This document shows, one piece after another, positions 40,402 to 62,259 of a stretch of 64,000 bases of DNA. The first letter of the stretch is position 1, and each line of letters starts with the position of its first letter. The notes beneath the pieces were generated by a model that saw only the letters and a list, made by a program, of their open reading frames with translations, searched no databases and was not told the DNA's origin. The translations under genes were made by a program, and so were the position numbers. This stretch comes from Runella rosea (lineage in GTDB: Bacteria; Bacteroidota; Bacteroidia; Cytophagales; Spirosomataceae): NCBI RefSeq assembly GCF_003325355.1, contig NZ_CP030850.1, positions 4,395,501-4,459,500 on the forward strand, in the 5' to 3' direction.

Positions 40402-40427
40402 GGTTGTTAGATTAAAACAAAAAATTC

Positions 40428-41300: not shown

Positions 41301-41346
41301 ACGTTATGAATATAATAGGAATTTTAAAATGGCTGTTTTTACAATA

Positions 41347-41364
41347 GCTCAAACCTTGTACCAA
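41347..41364 (-). promoter_or_regulatory. Sigma-54-like -24/-12 promoter, locus 1
   Basis: On the minus strand TTGGTACAAGGTTTGAGC has GG and GA separated by 10 nt, the spacing of -24 GG and -12 GC in sigma-54 promoters, with A for C at the last position. It is nearly identical to the element at 43906 and lies 47 bp from the ATG. Confidence 0.6.
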
Positions 41365-41418
41365 ATAGTGAATATCGCTGATTGACAGTGTTTTGCGTGT
41401 AGAGGAAAAATGAATAAT

Positions 41419-41455
41419 TGTCCGAATATGGACACTGTTTGTTCGTTGATGGACA
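41419..41455 (-). promoter_or_regulatory. Tandem palindromic activator-type sites, locus 1
   Basis: TGTCC-N6-GGACA (41419-41434) and TGTTC-N6-GGACA (41440-41455) have centres 21 bp apart, two helical turns, and lie 55 bp upstream of the sigma-54-like element. An 11-bp inverted repeat, ACACTGTTTGT (41432-41442) with ACAAACAGTGT (41460-41470), overlaps the second site and may end the neighbouring permease C transcript. Confidence 0.6.
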
Positions 41456-41501
41456 GCGGACAAACAGTGTAAATCATATGGGTGAAGATACCGCCGTTTG
41501 A

Positions 41502-43859
41502 TTATTCTGAACGGAGTGCTTTGACGGGATTGGCAATGGCAGAGCGGTACGTTTGAAGACCGATGGTCAGGCCGCCGATGAGAAACAAGAGCGCAAGACA
41601 AGGCCCAAAGGTTTCGATACCAATGGAAACATGGTACGAGAAATTGAGTAAAATAGCCATGCCCGCGAGGTACCCCAACGGAATCGCAACGGCCGAGGCA
41701 ATGAGCAACAACCGTACAAAATCCCAGGATAGGCTCCAAATAATTTGGTGAACAGCGGCCCCCATTACTTTCCGGATACCTACTTCTTTGGTGCGGGTTT
41801 CGGTATTATATGTCACCATTCCCAGCAAACCCATGCAGGCAATGGAAAACGCAATGGCCGTCAAAACACCCAGAAAATTATTATCATCGTCGTGAGAATG
41901 GCGCTCCAGAAGGTAATCGTTGTACCACTGCCCAGCAAACGGTTCGTAAGGATACAGTTGTTTCCAAACTTTCTCAATCGCGGCCAGAGAAGTGGCAGCG
42001 GTACCAGTGGCCACTTTTACGTTCAGGTACTGAAATCGTTCGGGCTGGTACTGAAGCAGCAATGGTTTTAAGGCCCAAACAAAACTGGCATAATTGAAAT
42101 TTTTCACCACACCCGCAACACTGACCTCACGGTTGTCGCTCAATATAATTGTTTTGCCAAGGGCCTCTTTGGCCGTTCCCAACCCGAAACCTTTAAGCGC
42201 TTCTTCGTTGATAATGACCCGATTTTTGGAGGCGTCGATGGGCCTAAAGTTCTGCCCCGCCAGCAGTTTTAACCCCAAAGCGGGTATCAATTGATGGTTG
42301 ATGGAAAAGCAGTCAATCAGTATTGAGTCGGTTTTGCTGCGTTGACGGTACGCCCATTGGGTATCCTGTGGGTGCGAGCCAAATAAATCGGAAGTTGTCG
42401 CTACCTGCGTAACGCCCGCCTGCTGATGAAGGGCATTTACTAATTTATCAGCAGATTGGCCGGGCAGAATAGGAATTGTCAAAACCTGTTCGCGCACAAA
42501 ACCGTAATCTCCTTCTGCCATGTAGGTCTGCTGACGATCTAGTACATACAGCGTAATCATGGCTAACAAAGACACCGAAAATTGCACCACAATCAGCGAT
42601 TTTCGCAACGAAATCCCCCGAATAACCTTCAGGCCAGTGTGGCTGCGGAGTACTTGAGCTGGTTCAAAATTGGAAAGAATACGGGCAGGAACCCATCCTG
42701 CCAGCAGGCCCGCTACAATACTGAAAACCACAAACAACAGACCCGTTTCCCAGCCCCACTTTACGCCACCAATGAGCCAACGCTGTACAAATTCCATCGG
42801 CTCAATCATTTTTAGCCCCACAAAAGCCAACGCTAATCCCAACAAAGACAAAATCACCGATTCGGCCATAAACTGCGCCATCACCTGCCAGCGTAGCCCG
42901 CCGACCACTTTGCGAATGCCTACTTCCCGCGCCCGGCTCAGCGAACGGGCCAGTGTAAGGTTGATGTAATTGAAAACGGCCAGTAAAAGGGTCAGTAAAC
43001 CCACGCCCATTTCTGTGGCCAATTTGCCGTAGGTCGGTTCGTAGGTGCCGCGCATCAACTCTTCATGCGAGGGCGCAATGGCCGATAGCGCCTGAGCGCG
43101 AAAGTGGTAGGAGTTGATTTTAGCATTTTGAATAATTTTGGTCGTACGAGATGCCACCGACGCGAGACTTTTCTCGAATGTCTCCTGCGTTACACCTGGC
43201 TTGAGCAGAATGTACGTATAGCCTTCCTGGTGGTTTTTCCAGTCGGTGAGGGCTTCACTTTTTAGGCTTTGGGCCGAAAGCAGCAGGTCAAACCTCTGGT
43301 GCGACCTTCCGGGCGTGGTGTTGTCAATGATGCCAGTCACGGTAAATGCCCCAGCTTCACCATATTGAATCACTTTCCCGATTGGGTTGGCTTTTCCGAA
43401 AAACTTCTCGGCCATACTCTTAGTAATGACTGCCGTGTGCGGTGCAGTCGCTGCTGTGCCTGAAATAATCGGGTAACCAAAAACCCTGAAAAAATCCGCA
43501 TCTACCCAAAAGGTCATGGGCTGTAGGCGTTTGCGTCCGTCGTCAAACTCGCCGTAGGCACGTATAAAATGCGTAGCACCTTCGACAAAATCATAGTCTT
43601 TTTTTAGTACATCGGCCAATGGCAACGGTGCTGTGGCAAAAGCCATCCGGTCGTTGGTTTTGCTGACTACATCCGTCAGCAGCCGATACGTGCGTTCGGG
43701 ATGCGGATGGAAATTGTCGTAATCAAAAGAGCCTTTGATGTCAATCAGTGCCAATAGACAAATCATCATTCCCGACGCCAGCCCAAAGATGTTGATGAAC
43801 GAAAATAGCTTGTATTTTCGAAGATTACGAAAGGCGATTTTGAAGTAGTTGTAGAGCAT
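41502..43859 (-). CDS. ABC permease, double MacB_PCD/FtsX (paralogue C)
   Basis: A 785-residue permease, the shortest complete one. It starts MLYNYFKIAFRNLRKYK. It has a first core with TAVITKSMAEKFFG, FtsX block 1 with RAREVGIRKVVGGLR near 316 and a second core with VIINEEALKGFGLG. FtsX block 2 has ETRTKEVGIRKVMGAAV near 695, and the protein ends NPVKALRSE. It differs from the others in the second MacB core, which includes HPQDTQWAYRQR. It is monocistronic: the sigma-54-like promoter at 43906 lies 47 bp upstream and an inverted repeat lies about 30 bp downstream. Confidence 0.9.
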   Translation of the reverse strand: MLYNYFKIAFRNLRKYKLFSFINIFGLASGMMICLLALIDIKGSFDYDNFHPHPERTYRLLTDVVSKTNDRMAFATAPLPLADVLKKDYDFVEGATHFIRAYGEFDDGRKRLQPMTFWVDADFFRVFGYPIISGTAATAPHTAVITKSMAEKFFGKANPIGKVIQYGEAGAFTVTGIIDNTTPGRSHQRFDLLLSAQSLKSEALTDWKNHQEGYTYILLKPGVTQETFEKSLASVASRTTKIIQNAKINSYHFRAQALSAIAPSHEELMRGTYEPTYGKLATEMGVGLLTLLLAVFNYINLTLARSLSRAREVGIRKVVGGLRWQVMAQFMAESVILSLLGLALAFVGLKMIEPMEFVQRWLIGGVKWGWETGLLFVVFSIVAGLLAGWVPARILSNFEPAQVLRSHTGLKVIRGISLRKSLIVVQFSVSLLAMITLYVLDRQQTYMAEGDYGFVREQVLTIPILPGQSADKLVNALHQQAGVTQVATTSDLFGSHPQDTQWAYRQRSKTDSILIDCFSINHQLIPALGLKLLAGQNFRPIDASKNRVIINEEALKGFGLGTAKEALGKTIILSDNREVSVAGVVKNFNYASFVWALKPLLLQYQPERFQYLNVKVATGTAATSLAAIEKVWKQLYPYEPFAGQWYNDYLLERHSHDDDNNFLGVLTAIAFSIACMGLLGMVTYNTETRTKEVGIRKVMGAAVHQIIWSLSWDFVRLLLIASAVAIPLGYLAGMAILLNFSYHVSIGIETFGPCLALLFLIGGLTIGLQTYRSAIANPVKALRSE

Positions 43860-43905
43860 ATCGGGTAACTGCTAAATGAACTTTTTCTGATTGATGCTTT
43901 TATTC

Positions 43906-43923
43906 GCTCAAACCTCGTACCAA
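43906..43923 (-). promoter_or_regulatory. Sigma-54-like -24/-12 promoter, locus 2
   Basis: On the minus strand TTGGTACGAGGTTTGAGC fits TTGGCACG-N4-TTGC with the 10-nt GG-to-GA spacing and two substitutions (C to T, C to A). Its distance to the ATG of permease C (47 bp) equals that at locus 1. Confidence 0.62.
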
Positions 43924-43975
43924 GAAATTAATGCATTGATTATTAGTGGTTTGTTGAATGGAAAAGGCGTTTGTT

Positions 43976-44011
43976 TGTCCGATTTTGGACATGTCTGTGC
44001 GGTTATGGACA
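43976..44011 (-). promoter_or_regulatory. Tandem palindromic activator-type sites, locus 2
   Basis: TGTCC-N6-GGACA (43976-43991) and TGTGC-N6-GGACA (43996-44011) have centres 20 bp apart and lie 53 bp upstream of the sigma-54-like element at 43906. Confidence 0.6.
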
Positions 44012-44033
44012 ACCGTAAATGGGGTTTGTAAAG

Positions 44034-45059: not shown

Positions 45060-45176
45060 GCTGTTTTCTTAAAGGCTGCGTGTCGTTCTGACTAAACGAA
45101 AATAACACAACTTTCAGAAATGACGAAACAAGAAATGATGAGCGGTGGCCGTGAGTTTTGGGAAATGAGGGTAGCG

Positions 45177-46379: not shown

Positions 46380-46388
46380 TGGACTCAA

Positions 46389-46889: not shown

Positions 46890-47017
46890 GAAGTGTAAAA
46901 AGGTTTATCACTAAAGGGCGTCTGCTAAAGGCAATTTAATCAGAAACCCTCATAACTAGTGAATCAGCGTGTTTAAGTTGTGCTAAAATCCCACGATTTG
47001 GGGGAGGTTTTAGGATG

Positions 47018-49459
47018 CTATTCTGATTTTAATGACTTCACGGGATTCATCAACGCGGCTTTGATACTCTGAAAACTCACGGTCAAAACGGCGATTCCCA
47101 TCGACAACACACCTGCCGCCACAAATACCCACCATTCGATGTCGATGCGGTAGGCAAAGTTTTGCAGCCATCTATCCACGGCGTACCACGCAATGGGAGA
47201 AGCGATGACTATCGCAATCAGTACCAACTTGATGAAATCTTTAGAGAGCAGCGTTGTGATACTCAACACCGAAGCACCCAGCACTTTTCGAATACCTATT
47301 TCTTTGGTGCGCTGCTGAATCACGTAGATAGCCAAGCCCAGCAAACCCATGCAGGCAATGAAAATGGCCAATAACGAAAACACCCCGAAAATACGTTGCG
47401 ATACCTGCTCCGATTGGTACAGGGCATTCCAATCGGAATCTAAAAAGGAATAATGAAATGGCTGGTCGGGCTGGTAGCGTTTCCAGATACTTTCTATTTG
47501 ACTGACCAACGGCTTGGCTTCCTGCGACTTGACCCGCACCACGATTTCGTTGTTAAACCGCCTGATTAAGCGGTCGTTAAGGATAAACAAAGGGACGATT
47601 TTTTCGTGCAATGAACTGAAATGGAAGTTTTTAACCACACCCACTATCGTATAAAAAACGGGTGGGCCGTCCTGTTGTGCAAAATTGTCGGGACTGATGA
47701 TTTGCTTGCCTATGGGGTCGGTTAGGCCTAGTTTAGTGACGGCTTCTTCGTTGAGAATGACCGATACGGAGTCGTTGAACGTACGCTCAAAGGGTCTGCC
47801 AGCCAGCATGGTCATGCACATGGTTTGCAGGTATTGCTCATCCACGAGCGTCCCGCGTCCAGTCACGCTTTCATTATCGCCGTTTTTACGGAAGGTAATT
47901 CCGAAAAATCCTTGTTTTTCGCCAGGCGTTGACGAAGTTCCTCCTACACTTTCTACTCCCGAAATCTGCTCCACTTCCCGCTTAAAGGTTTCGGTTTTGT
48001 TCCCTAGAAAACCAACGCCTTGTAATTTAATGATGGATTCTTTGGTAAAACCGAGTTCCTTTTCCTGCAAATAGTTCAGCTGACTGTACACGATGATGGT
48101 GCCGATAATGAGAATGATGGAAATGGAAAACTGAAAAACCACCAGGCCATTGCGCAGCCAATAGCCTTGACGAGTAGATAAAAATTTGCCTTTCAACACC
48201 TTAATAGGCTCAAACGCTGAAAGCACACCCGCTGGGTAACTTCCCGCCAGCAAACCCACAAAAATGGCCAAAGCTGGTAAGAATGGTAATAAAGACCAAT
48301 TGAAAAAATAGCTAAGAGCCAATTGCTTGCCTGCCAGATTGTTGAAAGAAGGAAGAAACAACGCCACCAAACCAACGGAAACCAAGAAACTGAACACACT
48401 CAGCAAAACTGATTCGGTCAAAAACTGTGCCGCCAACTGCGCTTTCGTGGAGCCCATGGCTTTACGAATGCCTACTTCGCGGGCGCGCTCAGATGAGCGG
48501 GCAGTGGCTAGATTCATGAAATTGATGCACGCAATCAGCAAAATAAACAGCGCGATGACCGAAAATAAATAAACCAGCGTGCGGCTACCGTTGGGTTGTA
48601 GTTCTGCTTCTATGTTGGAGTCAAGATGAATGTTGCGGATGGGTTGTAAGAAATAGAAATAGCCGTTTCCAGATTTGACGTAATCTTTGTACGAAACCCC
48701 GAAATTGCGCTCTACTTCCCCAGCGGCGTATTTTTCGACCACCTTTGGAAACTTCGCTTCTACGGCAGTGGCCTGTGTATGCGGTTTCAATAATAGATAT
48801 GTGTAGGCTGAAAAACTAATGTGGTTAATTTGGTCAGCGGGTTGTAAGTTGACCGTAGAAGTCAGAAAATCAAAGGTAAAATGCGCATTGGTTGGCACAT
48901 CTTCGCAAACACCAGAGATTTCTAGTTTCGGCCCCTGAACGAGTTCGACGAATTTGCCGATGGGACTCACTGTGCCGAATAAACGTCGGGCGGTACGTTG
49001 GGTTAACACGACCGTATTGGGCCGAGATAGTACTTTGGTCGGTGCACCTTCGATTAGCGGAATTTGAAATACTTGAAAAAAGGCCGAATCGGCAAAAAGA
49101 AAAGCGCGCTCTTCGAGGGTTTTGTTGTTATGACGCAGCAGCGTGGCGCCTTCTCCATTAAAATTAAAGACGCGAATCGATTGCTCTATTTCGGGGATTT
49201 CCTTGCGAACCGACTGCGCATAAGACGCGGGTATGATGGCGTATTTGGTGCTGCGGTCGGGGTATTTTCGTTCCAAAGCCATGCGGTAGATGCGCTCGCC
49301 CTGCGGCCAAAAACGGTCAAAATTCAGTTCGTCGGCTACGTACAGCACAATCAGCATACAACAGGTCATACCGATGGACAGCCCCGTAATGTTTATGAAC
49401 GTATTCGTTTTGTTTTTCAACAGATTACGAAGCGCGATTTTGAAGTAGTTTTTTAGCAT
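47018..49459 (-). CDS. ABC permease, double MacB_PCD/FtsX (paralogue D)
   Basis: An 813-residue permease at the downstream end of the seven-gene tandem array. It has an N-terminal helix near 22-44, a first core with TVVLTQRTARRLFG, FtsX block 1 with RAREVGIRKAMGSTK near 331 and a second core with VILNEEAVTKLG. FtsX block 2 has QQRTKEIGIRKVLGASV near 723. It ends NPVKSLKSE, the ending of most array members. A terminator-like hairpin (49489-49542) separates it from paralogue E, so it may have its own promoter, which I could not locate. Confidence 0.9.
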   Translation of the reverse strand: MLKNYFKIALRNLLKNKTNTFINITGLSIGMTCCMLIVLYVADELNFDRFWPQGERIYRMALERKYPDRSTKYAIIPASYAQSVRKEIPEIEQSIRVFNFNGEGATLLRHNNKTLEERAFLFADSAFFQVFQIPLIEGAPTKVLSRPNTVVLTQRTARRLFGTVSPIGKFVELVQGPKLEISGVCEDVPTNAHFTFDFLTSTVNLQPADQINHISFSAYTYLLLKPHTQATAVEAKFPKVVEKYAAGEVERNFGVSYKDYVKSGNGYFYFLQPIRNIHLDSNIEAELQPNGSRTLVYLFSVIALFILLIACINFMNLATARSSERAREVGIRKAMGSTKAQLAAQFLTESVLLSVFSFLVSVGLVALFLPSFNNLAGKQLALSYFFNWSLLPFLPALAIFVGLLAGSYPAGVLSAFEPIKVLKGKFLSTRQGYWLRNGLVVFQFSISIILIIGTIIVYSQLNYLQEKELGFTKESIIKLQGVGFLGNKTETFKREVEQISGVESVGGTSSTPGEKQGFFGITFRKNGDNESVTGRGTLVDEQYLQTMCMTMLAGRPFERTFNDSVSVILNEEAVTKLGLTDPIGKQIISPDNFAQQDGPPVFYTIVGVVKNFHFSSLHEKIVPLFILNDRLIRRFNNEIVVRVKSQEAKPLVSQIESIWKRYQPDQPFHYSFLDSDWNALYQSEQVSQRIFGVFSLLAIFIACMGLLGLAIYVIQQRTKEIGIRKVLGASVLSITTLLSKDFIKLVLIAIVIASPIAWYAVDRWLQNFAYRIDIEWWVFVAAGVLSMGIAVLTVSFQSIKAALMNPVKSLKSE

Positions 49460-49488
49460 GGGTTTTAGGGTTTGTCTATTGGAACAGG

Positions 49489-49542
49489 GAAAAACGGAAC
49501 ACGTAGAAAGTAGGGGTTCATAATTCCGTTCTTCGTGTTCTG
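49489..49542 (-). terminator. Terminator-like hairpin after permease E
   Basis: An imperfect 14-bp stem (49495-49508 with 49529-49542, two mismatches) has a long loop and is followed on the minus strand by TTTTTCC. It lies 20 bp beyond the stop of paralogue E. Confidence 0.5.
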
Positions 49543-49561
49543 TTTCTTCCGTTTTGCAATT

Positions 49562-51997
49562 TTATTCCGATTTTAGCGACTTAACTGGATTCATTAACGC
49601 TGCTTTGATGGCTTGAAAACTGACGGTTAATAGGGAAATAACCACTGCTAAAACTCCCGCAAGGAGAAACATCCACCACGAGATTTCGATGCGGTATGCA
49701 AACTCCGTCAGCCATTGGCGCATGGCAAAATAAGCGATGGGTGAAGCAATAACGACCGCAATGACGACCAACACCAAAAACTCTGCTGAGAGTAAACTCA
49801 CAATATTAGGGACACTCGCACCCAATACTTTGCGGATGCCGATTTCTTTGGTGCGTTGCTCAGCCATGTACGTAACCAGCCCAAAAAGCCCCAAACAGGC
49901 AATCAAAATGGTAAGAATAGCAAAGGTGAGGGCTACCTTGCCCACGCGCTGCTCGGCGCGGTACATTTGGTCAAATGATTGGTCTAAAAATTGGTAGCTG
50001 AAGGGCATGTCAGGGGCCATTTTTTTCCATTTGGCCTCCACTTTACTCACCAATCCTGGTACATCATTAGTGTTGATTTTGAAGGCCGTAGACCAATTGT
50101 TGTTGCCCAAACGCATGCATAAAGGCCCGACCGTTTGGCGGAGCGATTCGTAATGGAAGTTTTTCACTACTCCCACGATTTCGTACACCATGTCCAGACC
50201 AACAGACGGGCCACTTGAAGTATATATTTTTTTGCCGATAGGATCGTCGTAGCCCAGTAGTTTGGCGGTGGTTTCGTTGATAATCACGGCCGAAGAATCT
50301 GAACCGAATGATTTTGAGAAGTTTCGGCCTTTGATGATTTCCATGCCCAGCGTAGGTACGTACTCATAATCTACCCTCCAAACCTGCATATTAAAGCCGT
50401 TTTTCATGTCCATAACGGCCTCTTTAGAAAACGTATTATCGTTGCGAGAAGAGCCCGCAACGGGTAAAAAACCCGCGAATGAAGCACTTTTTACGCCCGC
50501 TATTTGCGCTATTTCATTTTTGAAAACTTCAGCGTTGGTAGCCAAGGCGCCTGTGCCATTGATGATGAGTACTTGGTCTTTATCAAAGCCCAGTTTTTTG
50601 GTTTGGATATAGTTGAGTTGTTGGTAAACAATAATGGTCCCGATGACCAAAACCAGCGAGGTTACAAACTGAAACGTAACGAGCAAATTGCGGAGATTGC
50701 TGCGCTTAAAACCTGCATTGAGCTTGCCTTTCAGGACTTCAATGGGCCGAAACGATGACAGGAAAAAAGCAGGGTAATAACCAGCTAAAAGCCCCACCGC
50801 AAAAGGTAACAGAAGCAGAAAGGGCAAAAGACTGGGTTGAAGCAGTGAGAAAACCGAAAAAGTCTTGGCCGAAATATCATTAAAATAAGGCAGTAATATA
50901 AACGTCATAAGCAGGGCGAAGGTAAACGCTAGGTAACTCGTCAGGGTGGATTCGGCAATGAACTGACCGATGAGTGTTTGCCGTTCGGTGCCCAGCACTT
51001 TTCGGATACCCACTTCTTTGGCGCGATTGGAGGAGCGGGCGGTGCTCAAATTCATAAAATTGATGCAGGCAATGAGCAACAAAAACAACGCTACTGCCGA
51101 GAAAATGTACACGTATTGAATATTGCCATTAACGCCCAGTTCGGCCGTAAGATCTGAATGTAAGTGAATGTCGGTTAGTGGCATCAGGCTGTATTCCAGT
51201 TTGTTGCCTGCTTTTTTAAATTCATCCATCGTCTCAACCTGCATAAATTGTTTGGCCTGCGGGAGGATATACCGTACTACATATTCGTCAAATTTTTTCT
51301 CAAAAGCCTTATAATCAGTGTCTTCTCGGAGCAAAAGGTACGTTTGGAAATTGTGGCTTAGATAACTCCCGAACCGATAATCAACATTGTCCATCGAGAA
51401 AATGAAGTCAAAATGGAAATGTGAATTGACGGGAATGTCCTTAATGACCGCCGTGATATTGTACATCGTTTTATCTTCCAGACCTACCTCAATGGATTTT
51501 CCGACGACATTGGTGGTGCCAAAATACTTATGGGCGGCGCTTTCGCTGATGACGGCGGTGTTGGGGTTATCGAGCGCCGTTTTGGTATTTCCGGCGATGG
51601 CTGGCAGCGTAAACACATCAAACAACGTTGAGTCGGCATAGGCAACACGTTCTTCCACAATGTACTCATTGCCCTTTTTGATGTGCCTTGAGCCGCTCGA
51701 CGCATAAAAACGGACGAACTGTTCTACCTGCGGATAGTCTTTTTTGAGCGTTGCACCCATCGGGTCGGAGGTGACGGCGAGGTTTAAATCAGTGCCACCA
51801 AAACGGATACTGGAGTGAATGCGGTAAATCCGGTCGGCTTTTTCATGAAAACGGTCATAGCTTAGTTCGTCGGTCACGTAGAGCGCAATCAGCATAAAAC
51901 AGCACAGACCAATGGCCAAACCCGCAATGTTGATGAATGAGAAAGTCTTGTTCTTCATCAAGTTTCTCCAAGCGATTTTGAAATAGTTTGTCAGCAT
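49562..51997 (-). CDS. ABC permease, double MacB_PCD/FtsX (paralogue E)
   Basis: An 811-residue permease. It has a first core with TAVISESAAHKYFG, FtsX block 1 with RAKEVGIRKVLGTER near 331 and a second core with VIINETTAKLLGYDDPIG. FtsX block 2 has EQRTKEIGIRKVLGASV near 721, and the protein ends NPVKSLKSE. By eye it is closest to paralogues D and G in the INFMNLSTARSS segment. It lies 54 bp downstream of paralogue F with no hairpin between, so the two are probably co-transcribed. Confidence 0.9.
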   Translation of the reverse strand: MLTNYFKIAWRNLMKNKTFSFINIAGLAIGLCCFMLIALYVTDELSYDRFHEKADRIYRIHSSIRFGGTDLNLAVTSDPMGATLKKDYPQVEQFVRFYASSGSRHIKKGNEYIVEERVAYADSTLFDVFTLPAIAGNTKTALDNPNTAVISESAAHKYFGTTNVVGKSIEVGLEDKTMYNITAVIKDIPVNSHFHFDFIFSMDNVDYRFGSYLSHNFQTYLLLREDTDYKAFEKKFDEYVVRYILPQAKQFMQVETMDEFKKAGNKLEYSLMPLTDIHLHSDLTAELGVNGNIQYVYIFSAVALFLLLIACINFMNLSTARSSNRAKEVGIRKVLGTERQTLIGQFIAESTLTSYLAFTFALLMTFILLPYFNDISAKTFSVFSLLQPSLLPFLLLLPFAVGLLAGYYPAFFLSSFRPIEVLKGKLNAGFKRSNLRNLLVTFQFVTSLVLVIGTIIVYQQLNYIQTKKLGFDKDQVLIINGTGALATNAEVFKNEIAQIAGVKSASFAGFLPVAGSSRNDNTFSKEAVMDMKNGFNMQVWRVDYEYVPTLGMEIIKGRNFSKSFGSDSSAVIINETTAKLLGYDDPIGKKIYTSSGPSVGLDMVYEIVGVVKNFHYESLRQTVGPLCMRLGNNNWSTAFKINTNDVPGLVSKVEAKWKKMAPDMPFSYQFLDQSFDQMYRAEQRVGKVALTFAILTILIACLGLFGLVTYMAEQRTKEIGIRKVLGASVPNIVSLLSAEFLVLVVIAVVIASPIAYFAMRQWLTEFAYRIEISWWMFLLAGVLAVVISLLTVSFQAIKAALMNPVKSLKSE

Positions 51998-52051
51998 GAT
52001 TTTAGGTTTTCAATATAAGATGAACTGCCTGCCTTAAGGGTTACACTTACA

Positions 52052-54442
52052 TTACTCCGATTTCAATGATTTTACTGGATTCATCAGCGCGGCTTTGACG
52101 GTATGAAAACTGACCGTCAATAAAGTAATCAGCAATACCAAGCCCGCAGAAAGCAGAAAAGTAACGGGACTGATGTCGGTTTTGTACGGAAACGGTTCAA
52201 GCCATTGATTCATAAAATACCACGCAATTGGAAATGCAATCAGGCAGGAAAGACCTACTAAATAAATAAACCCTTTGGAAATCAGTGTAACGATGTGTCC
52301 AGTTTCGGCACCCATCACTTTACGAACGCTGATTTCTTTGCGGCGTTGCTCAGTTGTGAAAGCCACTAAGCCCAATAGCCCTAAACAGGCAATTAGCACT
52401 GTCAGTGATGAAAAGGCGGTGAAAATGGTGCCGCGTTTTTGATCGGCGGCAAATTGCGATTGAAAATCTTGGTCCAGAAAATTATACTGAAACGAATGCT
52501 GCGGGAATACCTTTTTGTAAGACTTCTCCAAATGAGCCAATGTGCCGGGAATGTCGTTAGGGCTGATTTTGGCTTGTACAGAGCCATTATTTTCACGGTA
52601 CATCAAAATGAGCGGTTCGATAGGATTGTAAAGCGATTTTTGGTGAAAATCTTTGAATACGCCTACCACTTCCGCTAAGTTGGCAGTATCGCCCGCGAAA
52701 CGAATTTTCTTTCCCAACGCATCGGCCCAACCCATTTTTTTGATGAGGGCTTCGTTGACAATCATACGACGCAGCGAATCGGCTCGGTCTAATTCGGTGA
52801 AATTGCGTCCTTTGGAGAGTTGAATGCCCAATGTTTGTAAATAATGAGGGTCAACACCATACACTTCAACGCCCAAGTTGACAAAGCCTGTTTTTCCTTC
52901 GATTTCCATCAAATTGAAACTCTGGCCGTTGCTGTTGGGTGTATACCACGACGAACTCGCCGAAAGTACCTTCGGATTTTTCAGAAACTCTGATTTCATC
53001 AACTTGATTTCGTTGCGGCCGTCGCGGTTGATGGGCGGCATGTTTATCACCAACACTTGGTCTTTGCTGTAGCCCAAGTCTTTGTTTTTCATAAAGTTGA
53101 GTTGGTCATATACCACCCACGTGCTGATGAGCATTACCATCGAAATGGTAAACTGGAGTATCACCAAGGTCTGCCGCAAAGGGGCATTGCTAGATGCTTT
53201 GGCTAGGTTGCCTTTTAGCACCACCAAGGGATTGAATTTGGCCAAATAAAACGCTGGATAACTGCCTCCCAATAGGCCCACGACCACCACAATGGTCAAG
53301 ATACTGATGAGGGTAATGGGCTGAAAAATGGTGCCGAACGTGAACGTTTTGCCCGAAATATCATTGAAAACAGGCAACAATACGGCAATCAAAAGAAGGC
53401 TTAAAATAAGTGAGGCAAGCGTAATCACGGTCGATTCGGTCAAAAACTGCGCAATCAAGTGCCGCTGCAATGACCCCGATACTTTTCGAATGCCGATTTC
53501 CTTGGCCCGTCGTGCGGAGCGTGCCGTTGTGAGGTTCATGTAATTGATACAGGCAATCAAAATCATGAACAGCGCCACCGCCGAAAAGGTATAAATATAC
53601 GACATAGTGCCCAGTTCTTCTGGCTCATTGTTGAGGTCTGAGCGCAGGTGAATATCAACAATGGGCTGAACAACGTAGTTTATTTTGACATTATAAGGAG
53701 AAAAAATAGAGGCCATGTATTTTTCGTACATCGGCACTAATTTTTTCTCAAATGACTTATAATCACTGTTTTTGGTGAGTAAAGCGTAAGTGTAAAACCC
53801 AAAATTGCCCCAGTTATTGCCAAAGTCTTTTCCCAAACTTGAGGCAGAAATTAGCGCGTTAAATCGTAGATGCGAATTTTGCGGTACATCTTCGATAATG
53901 GCGGTGATGTTGTAAGTGTCCTTTTTTCCTTGCAATGATTTCCCTACCACATTGTCGGTTGTTTGGAAGTACTTTTCAGCCACTGACCTTGTTAGCACGA
54001 GCGAGTTGGGAGCAATAAGCGCTCTTTTGGCATCGCCAGCAATGAATTTGTACGTAAATACATCGAATAGATTGCTGTCGGCAAAGAAAACCTTGTCTTC
54101 AAAAAATTGCGTATCGCCTTTCTTAAATAACGTTTTATCGCCATTTCTCACAAAACGAACCGCGTGCTCTACCTCAGGGAATTCTTTTTTGAGGGTAGGC
54201 CCTAACGGAAATTGTGTAACGGCGACTTTGTCTGCCCGCTCGGGTTCTTTGATAGCGGCTCCCACGCGATAAATACGGTCGGCTTTTTCGTGGTAACGGT
54301 CGTAACTGAGTTCGTCGGTGATGTAAAAAACCAAAAATAGGCTGAAAGTCAGCCCAATGGTGAGGCCCAAGATGTTGAGGGCGGCGTAGCCTTTGTCCTT
54401 CAAAAGGCTTCGTACGGCGATTTTAAAATAGTTCTTTAACAT
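52052..54442 (-). CDS. ABC permease, double MacB_PCD/FtsX (paralogue F)
   Basis: A 796-residue permease. It has a first core with SLVLTRSVAEKYFQ, where the usual final glycine is replaced by glutamine. FtsX block 1 has RAKEIGIRKVSGSLQ near 319, with serine in place of the usual leucine/valine. The second core has MIVNEALIKKMGWADALG. FtsX block 2 has EQRRKEISVRKVMGAET near 706, where the conserved EIGIRK is EISVRK. These changes fall in the putative ATPase-contact motif, so its partner specificity may differ. It ends NPVKSLKSE. Confidence 0.9.
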   Translation of the reverse strand: MLKNYFKIAVRSLLKDKGYAALNILGLTIGLTFSLFLVFYITDELSYDRYHEKADRIYRVGAAIKEPERADKVAVTQFPLGPTLKKEFPEVEHAVRFVRNGDKTLFKKGDTQFFEDKVFFADSNLFDVFTYKFIAGDAKRALIAPNSLVLTRSVAEKYFQTTDNVVGKSLQGKKDTYNITAIIEDVPQNSHLRFNALISASSLGKDFGNNWGNFGFYTYALLTKNSDYKSFEKKLVPMYEKYMASIFSPYNVKINYVVQPIVDIHLRSDLNNEPEELGTMSYIYTFSAVALFMILIACINYMNLTTARSARRAKEIGIRKVSGSLQRHLIAQFLTESTVITLASLILSLLLIAVLLPVFNDISGKTFTFGTIFQPITLISILTIVVVVGLLGGSYPAFYLAKFNPLVVLKGNLAKASSNAPLRQTLVILQFTISMVMLISTWVVYDQLNFMKNKDLGYSKDQVLVINMPPINRDGRNEIKLMKSEFLKNPKVLSASSSWYTPNSNGQSFNLMEIEGKTGFVNLGVEVYGVDPHYLQTLGIQLSKGRNFTELDRADSLRRMIVNEALIKKMGWADALGKKIRFAGDTANLAEVVGVFKDFHQKSLYNPIEPLILMYRENNGSVQAKISPNDIPGTLAHLEKSYKKVFPQHSFQYNFLDQDFQSQFAADQKRGTIFTAFSSLTVLIACLGLLGLVAFTTEQRRKEISVRKVMGAETGHIVTLISKGFIYLVGLSCLIAFPIAWYFMNQWLEPFPYKTDISPVTFLLSAGLVLLITLLTVSFHTVKAALMNPVKSLKSE

Positions 54443-54461
54443 GGCTTTGGGTTATTAATTG

Positions 54462-54519
54462 GTAGGGGCAGGGCTTGTCTCCGCCCAGTTTTTTGGGTAG
54501 ATGCAGGCCGCACCCCTAC
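54462..54519. repeat. REP-like palindromic element, copy 3
   Basis: GTAGGGGCAGGGCTTGTCTC starts it and GCAGGCCGCACCCCTAC ends it, the same termini as the other copies but with more decayed arms. It fills the gap between paralogues G and F. Confidence 0.75.
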
Positions 54520-54521
54520 GA

Positions 54522-56939
54522 TTACTCTGATTTCAACGATTTCACGGGGTTCATTAATGCGGCTTTAATACTTTGAAAACTCACTGTCAGTAAGGCAATG
54601 ACAATTGCCGCGATTCCCGCCAATACAAATATCCACGCGCTGATTTCGATGCGGTAGGCAAAATCCTGCAACCATTGATTCATGCCCCAGTAGCCCAATG
54701 GAAACGCCACGACGCAAGCAATGACAATCAGTTTCAGAAAATCTTTGGATAACAAACCGATGATTTGTCCCACGTTGGCACCCAGCACTTTGCGTACGCC
54801 GATTTCTTTGGTGCGTTGTTCAGCGGTAAAAGTAGCCAAGCCAAACAATCCCAAACAGGCAATAAAAATGGTTAATCCCGAAAAAAGACTCAGGATGGTG
54901 CCTGTTTTCTGTTCGGCGACGTAGGTTTTTGCGAAAAGGTCATCCATAAATGCGTACTCAAACGGCTCATCGACGCCAAATGCTGCCCAACGACTTTTCA
55001 TAGAGGCCAGCAATTCAGACACGTCGCGGGTTTTTACCTTTACGATAAGCCCCCAGTTGTTTTCATAGACCATCAGCAGCGGTGAAATGGACTCGTGGAG
55101 CGATTTAAAGTGAAAATCTTGCACGACGCCAATCACTTTATAGACTTTCTTGAAGCTGTTGTTACGTGTGATATGATGGCCTACGGCGTTGTTGCCCCAA
55201 CCAAAGGCTTTTGCGGCGGCCTCGTTGATGATGATTCCCGCTGAGTCGGAAGCAAACGCTTTCGAGAAGTTACGGCCTTCAACGATTTTCATGCCCAACG
55301 TGGGAATGTATTGGTCGTCAATGCCGTATTGTAGCGTACGCATGATTTGCGCTTCGTTGTTTTCGGGATACGCCAGCGAATTGTTGGAGTTGGTGGGGCC
55401 AGCGGGTCGATAGGGTGAGGCTGTTACGTTCACCACCCGTGAATCTTTTAAGAGTTCTTCTCGAAAAATGGCTTCGTTTTTACCCAACGCCCACGAGTTT
55501 TGCAACACCAGCAATTGGTCTTTATCGTAGCCGAGCTTTTTGTTTTGAATGTACGAAAGCTGTTGGTAGACCACCGTGGTACCCACAATAAGGCAAATCG
55601 AAATGCAAAACTGAAACACTACCAAACCGCTACGCAGGCCAATGGTTTTTTTGCTACCTGTAAACCGGCCTTTTAGCACGGCAACGGGCTTAAAAGAAGA
55701 AAGAAAAAAGGCAGGGTAGCTCCCCGCCAAAACGCCGACCACCAGACCAAAAGCCAACAGTCCCGCCAACGTGAGCGGATTAGCCATAAAGTCAAGGTGC
55801 AGGTTTTTACCAGACAAATCGTTAAAAATAGGCAACGCCACTTGAACCAAAAGCATCGAGAGTGCCACCGCAAACGACGTCAGTAAGATAGATTCGAGCA
55901 GAAATTGGCGTACTAATTCAAGCTTAACGGAGCCGAGTACCTTCCGAACCCCCACTTCACGAGCGCGTTTGGAAGCCCCCGCCGTGGCCAAATTCATAAA
56001 GTTAATGCAGGCAATAAGCAGCATAAACAGGGCAATGGCCCCAAAAATATACACGTATTTTATATCCCCACTTGCCTCCAACTCATTGGTGCCTTCGGAA
56101 TAAAAGTGAATATCGGCCAATTTCTGTAAGTGTAAGCCCAGTTCATTGCCTTTGGTGCGAAACTGTGATAGGCTCATACCCATGGCCTGCAGAATCTGTG
56201 GACCCATGTATTTTTCGACCGTAGCGGGTAGTTTGGCTTCCAGTTTTTTGTAATCGACACCTTCTGCCAATACCAAGTAGGTGAAGTAATTGGAGGTCAG
56301 CCAAGAGGTTGATTTTGCCTCGTCGTCCGACGCCATTGAACCCAATAAATCGAAATGAAAATGAGAGTTAGACGGAATTTTATCAAACAGCCCCGTCACT
56401 CTAAACGCTGGCGCATCGGCGCCTTTTTTAAAATAAATGACTTTGCCAATGGGGTTTTCGTTGCCAAAATACCTTTGAGCCGCCGCCTTGGAAAGCACTA
56501 CACAGTTGGGTTGAATCAAGGCCGTTTTTGGGTCTCCTTGCAAAAAAGGAATGGTGAATACGTCAAAAAAGTTGGCGTCAACGTACGCCATTGGGGCATC
56601 GTTGAATAGTTTTTCGCCTATAACTACCCTCGGTGTGCCCAAATTGCGCAGTCGAGTGGCCTCTTGTACTTCTGTATAATCATTTTTTAATGCCTGTGCT
56701 GTGGGAGGCATTACACACGATTCGTTGATTTTTCCGCCGTTGATATTAGCTTTAAAAACAACCCGTACAATTCGGTCAGCTTTTTCGTTGAAACGGTCGT
56801 AGCTCAATTCATCCTGCACAAATAGGCTGATGACCAAGCACGTAGCAATCCCGATGGCTAAGCCGAAAATATTAATAAACGAATAGACCTTGTTTTTGAT
56901 AAGGTTACGGTAGGCGATTTTGAGGTAATTTTGTAGCAT
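54522..56939 (-). CDS. ABC permease, double MacB_PCD/FtsX (paralogue G)
   Basis: An 805-residue permease. It has a first core with CVVLSKAAAQRYFGNENPIG, FtsX block 1 with RAREVGVRKVLGSVK near 331 and a second core with IIINEAAAKAFGWGNNAVG. FtsX block 2 has EQRTKEIGVRKVLGANV near 715, and the protein ends NPVKSLKSE. REP-like elements flank it on both sides (54462-54519 and 56957-57016). Recombination between them could remove or duplicate the gene. Confidence 0.9.
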   Translation of the reverse strand: MLQNYLKIAYRNLIKNKVYSFINIFGLAIGIATCLVISLFVQDELSYDRFNEKADRIVRVVFKANINGGKINESCVMPPTAQALKNDYTEVQEATRLRNLGTPRVVIGEKLFNDAPMAYVDANFFDVFTIPFLQGDPKTALIQPNCVVLSKAAAQRYFGNENPIGKVIYFKKGADAPAFRVTGLFDKIPSNSHFHFDLLGSMASDDEAKSTSWLTSNYFTYLVLAEGVDYKKLEAKLPATVEKYMGPQILQAMGMSLSQFRTKGNELGLHLQKLADIHFYSEGTNELEASGDIKYVYIFGAIALFMLLIACINFMNLATAGASKRAREVGVRKVLGSVKLELVRQFLLESILLTSFAVALSMLLVQVALPIFNDLSGKNLHLDFMANPLTLAGLLAFGLVVGVLAGSYPAFFLSSFKPVAVLKGRFTGSKKTIGLRSGLVVFQFCISICLIVGTTVVYQQLSYIQNKKLGYDKDQLLVLQNSWALGKNEAIFREELLKDSRVVNVTASPYRPAGPTNSNNSLAYPENNEAQIMRTLQYGIDDQYIPTLGMKIVEGRNFSKAFASDSAGIIINEAAAKAFGWGNNAVGHHITRNNSFKKVYKVIGVVQDFHFKSLHESISPLLMVYENNWGLIVKVKTRDVSELLASMKSRWAAFGVDEPFEYAFMDDLFAKTYVAEQKTGTILSLFSGLTIFIACLGLFGLATFTAEQRTKEIGVRKVLGANVGQIIGLLSKDFLKLIVIACVVAFPLGYWGMNQWLQDFAYRIEISAWIFVLAGIAAIVIALLTVSFQSIKAALMNPVKSLKSE

Positions 56940-56956
56940 AATTTTTACGTTTTTAG

Positions 56957-57016
56957 GTAGGGGCAGGCCTTGCGTCTGCCCTATCAGAGCTGGGCAGACG
57001 CAAGGCCTGTCCCTAC
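56957..57016. repeat. REP-like palindromic element, copy 4, minimal form
   Basis: The cleanest copy. A 25-nt arm (56957-56981) and a 25-nt arm (56992-57016) pair with one G-U around a 10-nt loop, and no tandem units are present. It overlaps the end of paralogue H, whose TAG stop (57013-57015) lies in the terminal GTAGGG. Confidence 0.92.
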
Positions 57017-59442
57017 TCCGATTTCAATGACTTCACTGGATTCATCAAAGCCGCTTTAATGCTTTGAAAACCAACGGTTAAAAACGCAATCAGTACGGCC
57101 AGACTACCCGCGACGGCAAATACCCACCACGAAATGGAAATTCGGTACGCAAAATCTTGTAACCATTTGTCCATGAAATAATAGGCAATGGGCGAGGCAA
57201 TCAAAATGGCCAACAGCACCAACAACAGAAAGTCTTTGGATAGCAGCGCTGTAATGCTTGCCACTGAAGCGCCCAGCACTTTGCGGATACCGATTTCTTT
57301 GGTGCGCGACTCTACCGTAAAAGTAGCCAAGCCAAACAGACCCAAGCAGGCAATGAAAATCGCCCAAAGCGAGGCTGTGGTGAAGATACGGCTATATTGC
57401 TGCTCTGAAACGTAGAGTTTGTTGAAGTTCTCATCGACAAAAAAGTAGTCAAACGGATTGCCAGTAAAGTACGTTTTATAGAGTTTGTTCAAAGACGCTA
57501 TTTTTTCGGGCATCCGGTCAGCAGTCAGACGAACGGTGAAGTAGGCGTTGTTGTTTTGCGGATAAAAAATAATGGGGTCAATGGCTTTCTGTAAGCTGGT
57601 ATGGTGGTAGTCTTTGACCACGCCGATGATTTCGAGGTAGCGCTCATCCCATTTGATTTTGGTGCGAAGTGCCTGCTCGGCGGAGGTGAATCCCAATTGT
57701 TGAATGGCACGCTCGTTCATGAGCACTTTGCTGTTTTGATTCCACTCTACTTTACATTCTTCGGCGGTAAAATTGCGTCCGGCTTTGAGGCCGATTTCGT
57801 AGGTTTTCAGAAAACGCTCGCCGATGATGGCAAACGAATAAGTTTTGAATTCATCGCCCGACTTGGAATTGGGCTGGGTAAAACCAGCGGTGGAAAAATT
57901 GTACCAACCACTGGGAATTGTTCCCGATGTACAATAGTCTTTTATGAAGCTCTGTTGCGTCAATTCGTTCCAAAAAGCGTTTTTACGCGCTGCGTAGGTG
58001 CTGTCTTTGCCGATTTCGGGTCCGCGTATGACCAATAACTGCTGCGTGTTCATGCCCAGATTCTGGCTTTGCATGAAATTCAACTGGTTGTAAATCACTA
58101 TCGTTGCCAACACCAGCGTAATGGAAATGGAAAACTGGACCACCACCAGCGATTTGCGGAGAAAAACCCCTTTAGCTGTTTTATTCAACTGTCCTTTCAT
58201 CGTTTTGATAGGGTTGAAATTGGATAGCGCAAAGGCGGTATACGCGCCTGATGCCAACGACCCAATCAATACAACGGCCAATCCCCATATCCAAACGGGA
58301 GTATAGCCTAATGTTTTGAGAGACAGTGGTTTGTCAAGCAATTCGTTGAAGAAAGGTTGTAGCGCCGATACCAGCACAAGCGCTAAGACAAAACCCAATA
58401 GATTGACCAACATGGACTCGCCCAAAAACTGCTTTACCAAATGCCACTGGGTGGCTCCGATAACTTTCCGCACACCTACTTCATTGGCACGTTTGAGCGA
58501 ATTGGCGGTTGAAAGATTAACGTAATTGAACCATCCGATGATTAAAATCAAAAAGGCGATTCCCCCGAGCATGTATACGTATTTGAGGTTGCCCAAGGTT
58601 TGAAGGGTATCGTTGAGCGATGCCGACAAATGGGTATTTTTGAACGCCTGTAATCGAAAGCGTACGCCGTCGTTTTCTTTGCTCAATTCGTTGCGCATGG
58701 CCGTCAATTTAGCTTCAAACGCGCTAGGATTTACACCTTTATTGAGCAAAAAGAACATGTTTATGTATTGAGAATCAATATTTTCGGTGTCGGCCCAGCC
58801 GTTGCCGACCAAATTGGCGGAGATTTTTAGGGTTTCCAATGAAAACACCAAGTCGTACCGAATGTCGGAGTTGGCAGGCATATCGGCGTAAATGCCCTGG
58901 ACGGTAAAGGGCATCGTACCAAATTGATTTGACAACGTCAGCACTTTGCCCATCGGGTTTTCGGTGCCAAAATATTTTTTTGCGCTGGTTTCCGACACAA
59001 AAACTACGTTAGGCTTGGCCAGTGAGGTGGGCTGTCCAGATTTGAGCGGAAAGCTGAAAAATGAGAAGAAATTACCTTCGGCGTAGGAGATGTTCGTTTC
59101 ACGAAATGATTCGTTGGTGGGTCCTTCTTTTTTGACAATTCCTTGCGCCATGCCATCGGCAAAACGGCAGTAGGATTGAATATCGGGAAAGCGCTGCTTG
59201 GCCCGCGAAGCCCAACCGGGCTCCACTTCGCCCCAAGTAACTCCTTTGGGGTCTTCATTGAGCAGCCGGTACATATCTGGCAGATTGGTATGAAACTGAT
59301 TGAAGCTTTTTTCGTGGCTAACGTATTGGAGTATCAACAAAAAAGCCGAAATGCCCATGGCCAACCCAGCGATGTTGATGAAGCTGTACACCTTGTGGCG
59401 AAGCAGGTTACGGAATGCTATTTTGAGGTAGTTGTGGAGCAT
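57013..59442 (-). CDS. ABC permease, double MacB_PCD/FtsX (paralogue H)
   Basis: The start is best placed at the ATG at 59442 (MLHNYLKIAFRNLLRHK), in line with all paralogues; an upstream TTG frame to 59484 is a read-through of a terminator region. The 809-residue product has a first core with VVFVSETSAKKYFG and FtsX block 1 with RANEVGVRKVIGATQ near 325. The second core has VLMNERAIQQLGF. FtsX block 2 has ESRTKEIGIRKVLGASV near 717, and the protein ends NPVKSLKSE. Its stop codon is supplied by a REP-like element. It is the first gene after the sigma-54-like promoter at 59657, from which a 215-nt leader with a hairpin terminator separates it. Confidence 0.9.
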   Translation of the reverse strand: MLHNYLKIAFRNLLRHKVYSFINIAGLAMGISAFLLILQYVSHEKSFNQFHTNLPDMYRLLNEDPKGVTWGEVEPGWASRAKQRFPDIQSYCRFADGMAQGIVKKEGPTNESFRETNISYAEGNFFSFFSFPLKSGQPTSLAKPNVVFVSETSAKKYFGTENPMGKVLTLSNQFGTMPFTVQGIYADMPANSDIRYDLVFSLETLKISANLVGNGWADTENIDSQYINMFFLLNKGVNPSAFEAKLTAMRNELSKENDGVRFRLQAFKNTHLSASLNDTLQTLGNLKYVYMLGGIAFLILIIGWFNYVNLSTANSLKRANEVGVRKVIGATQWHLVKQFLGESMLVNLLGFVLALVLVSALQPFFNELLDKPLSLKTLGYTPVWIWGLAVVLIGSLASGAYTAFALSNFNPIKTMKGQLNKTAKGVFLRKSLVVVQFSISITLVLATIVIYNQLNFMQSQNLGMNTQQLLVIRGPEIGKDSTYAARKNAFWNELTQQSFIKDYCTSGTIPSGWYNFSTAGFTQPNSKSGDEFKTYSFAIIGERFLKTYEIGLKAGRNFTAEECKVEWNQNSKVLMNERAIQQLGFTSAEQALRTKIKWDERYLEIIGVVKDYHHTSLQKAIDPIIFYPQNNNAYFTVRLTADRMPEKIASLNKLYKTYFTGNPFDYFFVDENFNKLYVSEQQYSRIFTTASLWAIFIACLGLFGLATFTVESRTKEIGIRKVLGASVASITALLSKDFLLLVLLAILIASPIAYYFMDKWLQDFAYRISISWWVFAVAGSLAVLIAFLTVGFQSIKAALMNPVKSLKSE

Positions 59443-59463
59443 GGTTTCATGAGTTTGGGCGAG

Positions 59464-59502
59464 AAAAAAAGAAGGAAAGAACAAAGATTCATTCTTTCCT
59501 TC
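59464..59502 (-). terminator. Intrinsic terminator inside the leader of permease H
   Basis: An 11-bp perfect stem (GAAGGAAAGAA at 59471-59481 with TTCTTTCCTTC at 59492-59502) is followed on the minus strand by seven T residues, ending 21 bp before the ATG at 59442. It lies downstream of the sigma-54-like promoter, as an attenuator would. Confidence 0.8.
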
Positions 59503-59514
59503 ACAGGCTTTTGT

Positions 59515-59568
59515 TTACAGATTACACGATGGCGTGCATGGGTTGATTAAAATACAAAATTCGTTCAT
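59515..59568 (-). CDS. Possible 17-codon leader peptide upstream of the terminator
   Basis: ATG at 59568 opens a short frame, MNEFCILINPCTPSCNL, ending in TAA 12 nt before the terminator stem at 59464-59502. It has three cysteines and two prolines. The place between a promoter and a terminator-hairpin fits a translated attenuator leader, but a short ORF of this size can occur by chance and no Shine-Dalgarno is evident. Confidence 0.3.
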   Translation of the reverse strand: MNEFCILINPCTPSCNL

Positions 59569-59656
59569 GGCTGTATGAAACGGAAAATGCTTTATAATGA
59601 TTGAGAGGTAATGAATGGCTGTTAGTAACCTCTATTAATTGCTTACTACTCTTGTT

Positions 59657-59672
59657 TCCAAATCCGTACCAA
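59657..59672 (-). promoter_or_regulatory. Sigma-54-like -24/-12 promoter, locus 3
   Basis: On the minus strand TTGGTACGGATTTGGA shares TTGGTACG with loci 1 and 2 and keeps the 10-nt GG-to-GA spacing. The -12 side (TTTGGA) is weaker. Confidence 0.5.
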
Positions 59673-59724
59673 AAATATAAGTATTTGATAATCAATAATT
59701 AAAAAAAATGTCAGGGTAAAAAAA

Positions 59725-59761
59725 TGTCCATAAACGGACATTTTCAGTTCGTTTATGGACA
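59725..59761 (-). promoter_or_regulatory. Tandem palindromic activator-type sites, locus 3
   Basis: TGTCC-N6-GGACA (59725-59740) and AGTTC-N6-GGACA (59746-59761) have centres 21 bp apart and lie 53 bp upstream of the sigma-54-like element at 59657. Confidence 0.6.
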
Positions 59762-62243: not shown

Positions 62244-62259
62244 GGCTGTTGGGATTGTA

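Follow-up and report, generated by a model that had tools for sequence, protein, structure and literature searches.

A predicted sigma-54/two-component regulon for an export pump with many duplicated permeases in Runella rosea

The window analyzed here, a stretch of 64,000 nucleotides of Runella rosea DNA (contig NZ_CP030850.1; C1:4395501-4459500 of the 7.16-Mb assembly), carries on its minus strand an array of duplicated FtsX/MacB_PCD permease genes and, between them, three sites (P1, P2 and P3) in which paired palindromes lie upstream of a sigma-54-type promoter element. A sequence-only reading of this DNA had proposed that the three loci form one regulon of permeases without ATPases under a regulator encoded elsewhere. 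This report concerns that proposal, the further copies of the site in this genome and its relatives, and the predicted sigma-54/two-component regulon to which we assign them.

The permease array and its paired sites

The sequence-only reading located P1, P2 and P3 correctly on the minus strand, and all three carry paired TGTCC-N6-GGACA palindromes upstream of GG-N10-GA, with start-to-start distances within the pairs of 21, 20 and 21 nt, respectively (Table 1). Two details were revised. The promoter motif it had written as TTGGTACG-N4-TTTG has N3 in P1 and P2 and N2 in P3, the constant part being GG-N10-G; and its statement that nothing else is conserved in the three intergenic regions fails on an integration host factor (IHF)-like 13-mer that P2 and P3 share at equal position before GG and that is missing from P1.

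Both MacB_PCD and FtsX score above the Pfam gathering score in all ten window permeases scanned, the one cut by the window edge barely passing for MacB_PCD (27.2 vs 27). These ten belong to a larger cluster of 24 long permease open reading frames (ORFs) with a MacB_PCD match. The four tandem permeases at 47018-56939 are likely in the same transcription unit as P3, and the two at the right end of the window are likely read from the next site, P4, at 72437. The long leader of P3 has a counterpart in the relatives' loci L075 and L077. Some long ORFs start with DNA that encodes short tandem peptide repeats, ADARR and GQRQT (window:40500-40608; L065:7195-7320), and these starts are perhaps spurious N-terminal extensions over DNA repeats.

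Neither half of the motif is evidence by itself, because loose palindromes are at chance level (17 with ≤2 mismatches in the window vs 20.35 expected) and TTGGTAC is frequent (19 in the window, 16 of them away from the three sites, vs 6.96 expected); both were rejected as stand-alone evidence. In the whole genome, there are 10 exact palindromes vs 1 for the reversed control, and nine of the ten fall within 78 kb (4436919 to 4514430), the last of these directly upstream of the regulator gene described below. When the exact palindrome is required to be followed after 40-70 nt by TTGGTAC, three genome matches are left, all of them P1-P3, and the control has none. Two of the seven exact palindromes outside P1-P3 form one pair, leaving six independent further loci, and all six have GG[CT]A-N8-G 44-67 nt downstream, compared with 4.5% of intergenic windows (p ~9e-9, with a test range of 43-67 set after the sites had been seen and with overlapping intergenic windows). 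We conclude that the exact palindrome and its coupling to a promoter in this genome are not due to chance.

The palindrome by itself led to these six loci; the further paired sites are listed in Table 1 (P4, in which the distal member is a half site, lies at 72437, P5 at 90629 and P7 at 106518). Two checks suggested by the sequence-only reading, a genome scan with the two-part motif and enrichment at FtsX permease, adaptor and ATPase genes, both supported it. GG, A and the G at -12 are invariant in the 11 aligned own sites. A model of these 11 sites recovered all of them in a genome scan and added three more: a promoter on the opposite strand that reads the regulator gene (E 3.7e-9), 5207444 (E 1.7e-8) and 3560690 (E 3.3e-6), the last two being new loci. 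The next match follows only at E 0.02; the 14 own sites referred to below are the 11 aligned sites, the divergent promoter and the two new loci. Elsewhere in the genome, the matched permease ORFs comprise two long ones (C6; 6452753, with its own ATPase) and eight of ~400 aa. Because only the pair behind 3560690 among these ten adjoins a model match, the motif marks the cluster and not every such permease.

C1:4430000-4536000 encodes just two ABC ATPases, and both of their operons follow one of these sites: the adaptor operon contains the first ATPase, and the second comes after 137738, with an outer-membrane efflux protein next. P5 and P7 have PadR-like genes behind them and then long permeases; 5207444 has three small secreted DUF3244-like proteins downstream, two of which pass the Pfam cut-off; and 3560690 has behind it a second pump operon (adaptor, channel, ATPase and two permeases) with a paralogous regulator and kinase. 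The proposal of one regulon is supported, and its restriction to ATPase-less permeases is not, as the predicted regulon also includes two ATPases, an adaptor, a channel, PadR regulators and the regulator itself. The operon at 3560690 (L065:5683-13282; C1:3560683 onward) carries the palindrome TGTTCG...CGAACA, in which the half-site is changed by one base.

For the relatives, we used 42 strong sites, i.e. the 53 of 78 rows above 32 bits minus 11 duplicates; the other 25 rows scored lower, most of them being opposite-strand readings of the same palindromes, and were dropped. Fourteen of the 42 are in the genus and 28 in 17 other genera. GG-N10-G is present in 14/14 own sites and in 38/42 of these. 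The sequence-only reading had counted GA instead of GC at -12 as a weakness, which it is not: the -12/-11 dinucleotide is GA in 7, GC in 3, GT in 2 and GG in 2 of the 14 own sites, and GG in 18, GA in 13, GT in 4 and GC in 3 of the 38 relatives' sites with a recognizable promoter. The gap between operator and promoter is 54-56 nt in 10/14 own sites (43, 44, 65 and 67 in the others) and 52-56 nt in 35/38 relatives' sites (63, 64 and 67 in the other three). Helical phasing was rejected as proof, the off-length gaps lying about one turn away but not exactly.

In the textbook order of a sigma-54 promoter, an activator site is followed by a bend site and then by the -24/-12 element. The IHF consensus, which we take to be WATCAANNNNTTR, is matched exactly in 8/14 own spacers and with ≤1 mismatch in 11/14 (shuffled means 0.12 and 2.8), and in 14/38 and 32/38 relatives' spacers, respectively (shuffled means 0.41 and 7.5); among 300 shuffled spacer sets, exact matches numbered at most 2 (own) and 4 (relatives) and none reached the observed values, in a control that shuffles single letters only and with a consensus applied after the spacers had been seen. 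The IHF-like copies lie mostly at two positions, 22 or ~34 nt from the GG end. In P7 and in two relatives' sites, all three of them PadR promoters, there is no good IHF-like block, and a terminator-like hairpin with a T-run lies instead in the spacer between operator and promoter.

Table 1 Positions of sites, promoter elements and genes (window numbering unless a contig or locus is given; sites beyond the window in continued window numbering)
Feature	Position	Strand	Remark
P1 distal member of paired activator site (TGTCC-N6-GGACA-like), predicted	41440..41455	-	1 mismatch
P1 proximal activator palindrome, predicted	41419..41434	-	exact
P1 sigma-54-type -24/-12 element, TTGGTAC...GG-N10-GA	41349..41364	-	56 nt from proximal palindrome
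P2 distal member of paired activator site, predicted	43996..44011	-	1 mismatch
P2 proximal activator palindrome, predicted	43976..43991	-	exact
P2 IHF-like 13-mer AATCAATGCATTA	43929..43941	-	match to IHF consensus
P2 -24/-12 element, GG-N10-GA	43908..43923	-	gap 54 nt
P3 distal member of paired activator site, predicted	59746..59761	-	2 mismatches
P3 proximal activator palindrome, predicted	59725..59740	-	exact
P3 IHF-like 13-mer TATCAAATACTTA	59678..59690	-	match to IHF consensus
P3 -24/-12 element, GG-N10-GA	59657..59672	-	gap 54 nt
Further paired sites	72437, 90629, 103223, 106518, 114112, 118915	-	next 76.5 kb
Further paired site	137738	+	next 76.5 kb
Eleventh paired site	C1:2156138		outside cluster
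803-aa FtsX/MacB_PCD permease	34606..37017	-	array end
873-aa duplicated FtsX/MacB_PCD permease	37987..40608	-	downstream of P1
100-aa ORF	40998..41300	-	first after P1; no Pfam family
785-aa FtsX/MacB_PCD permease	41502..43859	-	first gene after P2
Four tandem FtsX/MacB_PCD permeases	47018-49459, 49562-51997, 52052-54442, 54522-56939	-	likely P3 unit
823-aa FtsX/MacB_PCD permease	57013..59484	-	first long ORF after P3; leader ~170 nt or more
Two more array permeases	59817..63876	-	second cut by window edge; likely read from P4
Two rpoN genes	C1:3752619-3753095; C1:6269770-6270249		one adjoins a different sigma-54 activator
PadR promoters with spacer hairpin	L030:4947-5054; L206:1511-1625; L196:1637-1751		

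Probable regulator, relatives and a candidate small RNA

A single paired site at 118915, with a promoter in each direction, divides two divergent units: on the minus strand an adaptor (432 aa), an ABC ATPase (225 aa) and a permease, and on the plus strand a regulator and a 442-aa kinase, the domains of which, taken from the orthologue in locus L112, are PAS and HATPase_c. The regulator, here called EBP1 for enhancer-binding protein (456 aa, C1:4514594-4515961), is of the NtrC type, with a receiver (PF00072), a sigma-54 AAA+ domain (PF00158) and a Fis-type helix-turn-helix (PF02954, HTH_8), and is likely the regulator of these sites, judging by its position and distribution. The NtrC-family gene for which the sequence-only reading had proposed a search is thus present; it lies outside the window but is part of the same cluster, 55 kb past the right edge. 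Because the model scores the plus strand of site 118915 as a promoter, EBP1 probably activates its own gene. The rpoN gene sought by that reading is also present, in the form of two PF04552 genes, both with the RpoN box ARRTVAKYRE.

The genome has 12 PF00158 matches, seven of which are strong sigma-54 activators, and only two of these seven, EBP1 and its 44% identical paralogue EBP2, have the contact loop GAFTDA. EBP1 is 98-99% identical to the closest named Runella loci, and in the 19 named orthologue loci the loop is GAFTDA (17) or GAYTDA (2) in place of GAFTGA; two Acidobacteria homologues at 40% have GAFTGA. In NorR, as described in the accessible text of PMC2941729, the change from GAFTGA to GAFTDA (G266D) freed activity from the sensor domain. 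Because natural GAFTDA/GAYTDA activators exist, which the accessible part of PMC4641369 lists as able to activate, GAFTDA here need not mean constitutive activity.

Conservation in relatives, the absence of which would have counted against the sequence-only reading, is borne out: the sites recur at fitting genes and co-occur with the regulator. At E≤1e-3, sites are present in 43/59 genomes (13/13 of the genus including our own, 21/24 in the rest of the family and 9/22 in the rest of the order). With E≤1e-100 as cut-off, 41/59 genomes, our own included, have the regulator, and all 41 have sites, compared with 2/18 genomes without it (Fisher 1.4e-12). Of 296 genomes from across the phylum, ours among them, 38 carry a site at E≤1e-4, 83 the regulator and 34 both, so that the regulator is found in 34/38 site-bearing vs 49/258 site-less genomes (p 1.5e-17). 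The first ORF downstream of the 42 strong sites is a permease in 23, an ATPase in 6 (by reading; the Pfam tally is 7, one presumably a cross-match), an adaptor in 4, the regulator in 3, PadR in 2, DUF3244 in 2, another gene in 1 (L210) and none in 1 (L099); 40/42 thus precede genes of these six kinds.

Among the named orthologue loci, a double-facing site lies upstream of the regulator in all eight named Runella loci, and also, with a weaker second side, in Emticicia (L119) and two metagenome-assembled genomes (L120 and L130); in L126 the site adjoins the adaptor and is 2 kb away from the regulator, and L127 has a match at equal distance. Outside the family, 62 matches were listed; 13 of them are at most 506 nt upstream of a regulator start, and another 22 are no more than 30 kb away. 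Twelve outside-family loci were read by eye, and in 11 of them a permease, adaptor/ATPase or regulator adjoins the site (L243 being the exception); GAFTDA was seen in three regulators among them. No site was found at any of 60 distant loci; in many of these it is only the receiver domain that matches the query, and some have short flanks.

Several observations weigh against a regulon controlled by EBP1. A site occurs without a regulator match in two of the 59 genomes (G008 and G026) and in 4/38 of the wider set, and 49/83 regulator-bearing genomes of the wider set, for which stricter filters were used, have no site at E≤1e-4; the latter points to drift of the operator or to sites missed by the model. 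Shared ancestry and genome size confound the co-occurrence, and at E≤1e-100 the paralogue of EBP1 also passes as the regulator. The 42 sites are the best-scoring ones and hence a biased sample, the model was trained on our own sites, and many of the relatives' sites are orthologous and not independent. Moreover, own site 2156138 has no gene behind it and relative site L099 neither promoter nor gene; among the 19 named orthologue loci, L122-L125 have no site at E≤0.1, L129 has a weak one (E 0.026) and L128 starts inside the gene; and P1, P7 and P8 are without the IHF-like block.

At 2156138 (L032:10117-10313; C1:2156117-2156313), the paired site and GG-N10-GA are followed by no convincing ORF and, after ~90 nt, by a hairpin and T-run. 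The element is kept in five genomes of the genus with an identical 44-nt gap, an invariant core and a conserved hairpin. We regard its transcript as a candidate sigma-54-driven small RNA, and it remains a candidate because the hairpin could also terminate the convergent gene L032:10339-10929. A simple terminator scan found no terminator behind this site, though the strong T-run hairpin is conserved there, and Rfam gave no match on L030-L032. A model of the small RNA (R2) matches 29/59 genomes at E≤0.01, strongly (E≤2.8e-13) in only five, all of the own genus; the weaker matches (E 2.3e-6 and weaker) are probably terminators.

The word ACAGCCAT is repeated in the leaders after P1, P3 (twice), P9 and the 5207444 site (window 41300-41345 and 59560-59630; L030 near 17315; L066 near 4600) and the candidate small RNA has it in the form CAGCCAT. 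Both strands of 283.5 kb of own sequence contain 19 copies of it; because only seven are intergenic, most of the intergenic copies are these leader copies. In P3 (window 59725-59761) and P4 (L028:8937-8974), the outer palindrome arms are complementary at 12/12 positions and followed by seven T, and because of this the operator could form a terminator-like hairpin there; complementarity in the other nine aligned own sites is 5-9 of 12.

Alternative explanations and known systems

The palindromes might be bound by another regulator, PadR-like or EBP2, with the adjacency of EBP1 coincidental. PadR-like genes do lie behind P5 and P7, and EBP2 is similarly arranged, its own pump operon being preceded by TGTTCG...CGAACA halves. 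This is nonetheless improbable, as EBP1 directly follows the double-facing site in every named Runella locus, the presence of the regulator predicts sites across genomes, and in 13 of the 62 listed outside-family matches the site is at most 506 nt upstream of the regulator start; because PadR comes first behind only 2/42 relatives' sites, the PadR genes look like targets.

Bacteroidota housekeeping promoters have a TTTG-rich -7 box, and most of our sites end in TTTG, with a nearly invariant T before the G; since sigma-54 dependence is only predicted, the promoters could be of this ordinary type and the GG element incidental. Nevertheless, all 11 own sites keep the N10-spaced GG, A and G, and three of them (P6, P9 and P10) have lost TTTG, GG-N10-G is retained in most of the relatives' strong sites, the distance to the activator sites is nearly fixed with an IHF-like block between, and the neighboring regulator is a sigma-54 activator, and we therefore consider a housekeeping origin very improbable. 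Duplication of the permease genes together with their upstream DNA, instead of selection for an operator, would account for tandem paralogues and for P3 and P4 being similar in both arms and the following T-run. However, spacers differ outside the IHF-like block, and the sites precede unrelated adaptor, ATPase, PadR, DUF3244 and regulator genes, also in other genera and outside the order, which largely refutes this explanation and leaves it next to no probability.

EBP1 shares the receiver, sigma-54 AAA+ and Fis-type helix-turn-helix with the NtrC-family activators AtoC, ZraR and PrsR (solved relatives 4l4u and ZraR 1ojl), and, as in those systems, it goes with paired inverted repeats, an IHF-like site and a -24/-12 promoter, has a divergent target operon and apparently regulates its own gene. 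It differs from these relatives in the GAFTDA/GAYTDA loop of its orthologues, in place of GAFTGA, and in having a permease array as target, and it reaches the curated cut-off of none of the 25 NCBIfam models listed of 71 matched (best PEP_resp_reg, 375.5 vs 502.6 bits). Sigma-54 activators of Desulfovibrio vulgaris share the GAFTDA/GAYTDA loops but differ in lineage and targets; one of them, DVU1419, is linked to envelope stress and a non-coding RNA (both according to the accessible part of PMC4641369).

ADOP permeases are orphan permeases. Members of this family (TIGR03434), with their PadR partner (TIGR03433), have the same duplicated MacB_PCD-FtsX layout and PadR neighbor. Because three array permeases score 242.7, 273.6 and 275.3 bits against TIGR03434 (cut-off 622.3) and the PadR 35.9 against TIGR03433 (cut-off 101.8), they are related to these families but not members; one protein passes NF038404 (permease prefix domain 2; 92.1 vs 35). 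Exporters of the MacAB-TolC type and the darobactin exporter DarBCD likewise combine adaptor, ATPase, permease and outer-membrane channel. The best matches of the ATPase, DarD (279.8, cut-off 375) and MacB (229.0), are both below cut-off, as are DarC for the adaptor (204.3 vs 450) and DarB (117.9-120.8 vs 700), and the adaptor passes the RND adaptor model TIGR01730 (138.8 vs 94.9). Unlike these exporters, the cluster has 24 permeases for two ATPases.

A statistical promoter survey (PMC12316311) reported, in its accessible text, that predicted sigma-54 promoters are enriched at FtsX-like/COG0577 permease genes in Bacteroidia and called this the first evidence linking the two; that text contains no operator, regulator or operon structure and no occurrence of Runella or Spirosoma, and because, as described there, only GAFTGA-containing activators were retained, EBP1 would be missed. 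Among the open-access full-text matches listed, we recognized no description of this operator or regulator, and a word search of PMC3162934 gave no mention of Bacteroidetes or ABC export.

Proposed mechanism and its meaning

Based on the observed sites, their spacing, gene content, co-occurrence and conservation, we think it very likely that the array belongs to a single conserved regulon, under sigma-54 and a two-component system, that induces a tripartite export pump for which many duplicated permeases serve as alternatives; from the same DNA we infer regulator binding, bending, sigma-54 dependence, operon extents and transcript starts. In the suggested mechanism, the histidine kinase and EBP1 would sense a signal, probably envelope-related, and the phosphorylated regulator would bind the paired TGTCC-N6-GGACA sites. 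A bend at the IHF-like spacer site may help it to reach sigma-54 RNA polymerase waiting at the GG-N10-G promoter, usually ~54 nt downstream, and EBP1 would open this promoter as an AAA+ enhancer-binding protein. The periplasmic adaptor, the two ABC ATPases, the outer-membrane channel and much or all of the 24 duplicated permeases would be co-induced, rising together because the kinase/regulator pair would activate the array promoters as well as its own gene, and self-induction of the regulator would provide positive feedback. Judging by gene content, the few ATPases and the adaptor induced with them probably serve the permeases in common, which would make one export machine with many alternative membrane parts. 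What is added here is the predicted operator, regulator, feedback and regulon content; the mechanism itself is standard for sigma-54.

A wider generalization, which we offer tentatively and regard as doubtful, would be a distinct sigma-54 branch for envelope export across much of Bacteroidota, in which a GAFTDA activator is matched to promoters with G and then A/G at -12, loop and -12 element having co-evolved, and drives a mix-and-match pump in which few ATPases serve many interchangeable permeases; positive feedback would be part of it, as would a sigma-54-driven small RNA in some Runella.

For the statistical enrichment of PMC12316311, as far as its accessible text goes, the sites and EBP1 would supply a concrete operator and regulator of the sigma-54/FtsX link. 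The loop variants offer a natural test of how such variants read the -12 element, and the EBP1 and 3560690 systems a natural pair for the study of operator specificity. To our knowledge, no function has been settled for arrays of duplicated permeases that lack ATPases of their own; linking this array to a single two-component system, a single operator and two ATPases would make its function testable.

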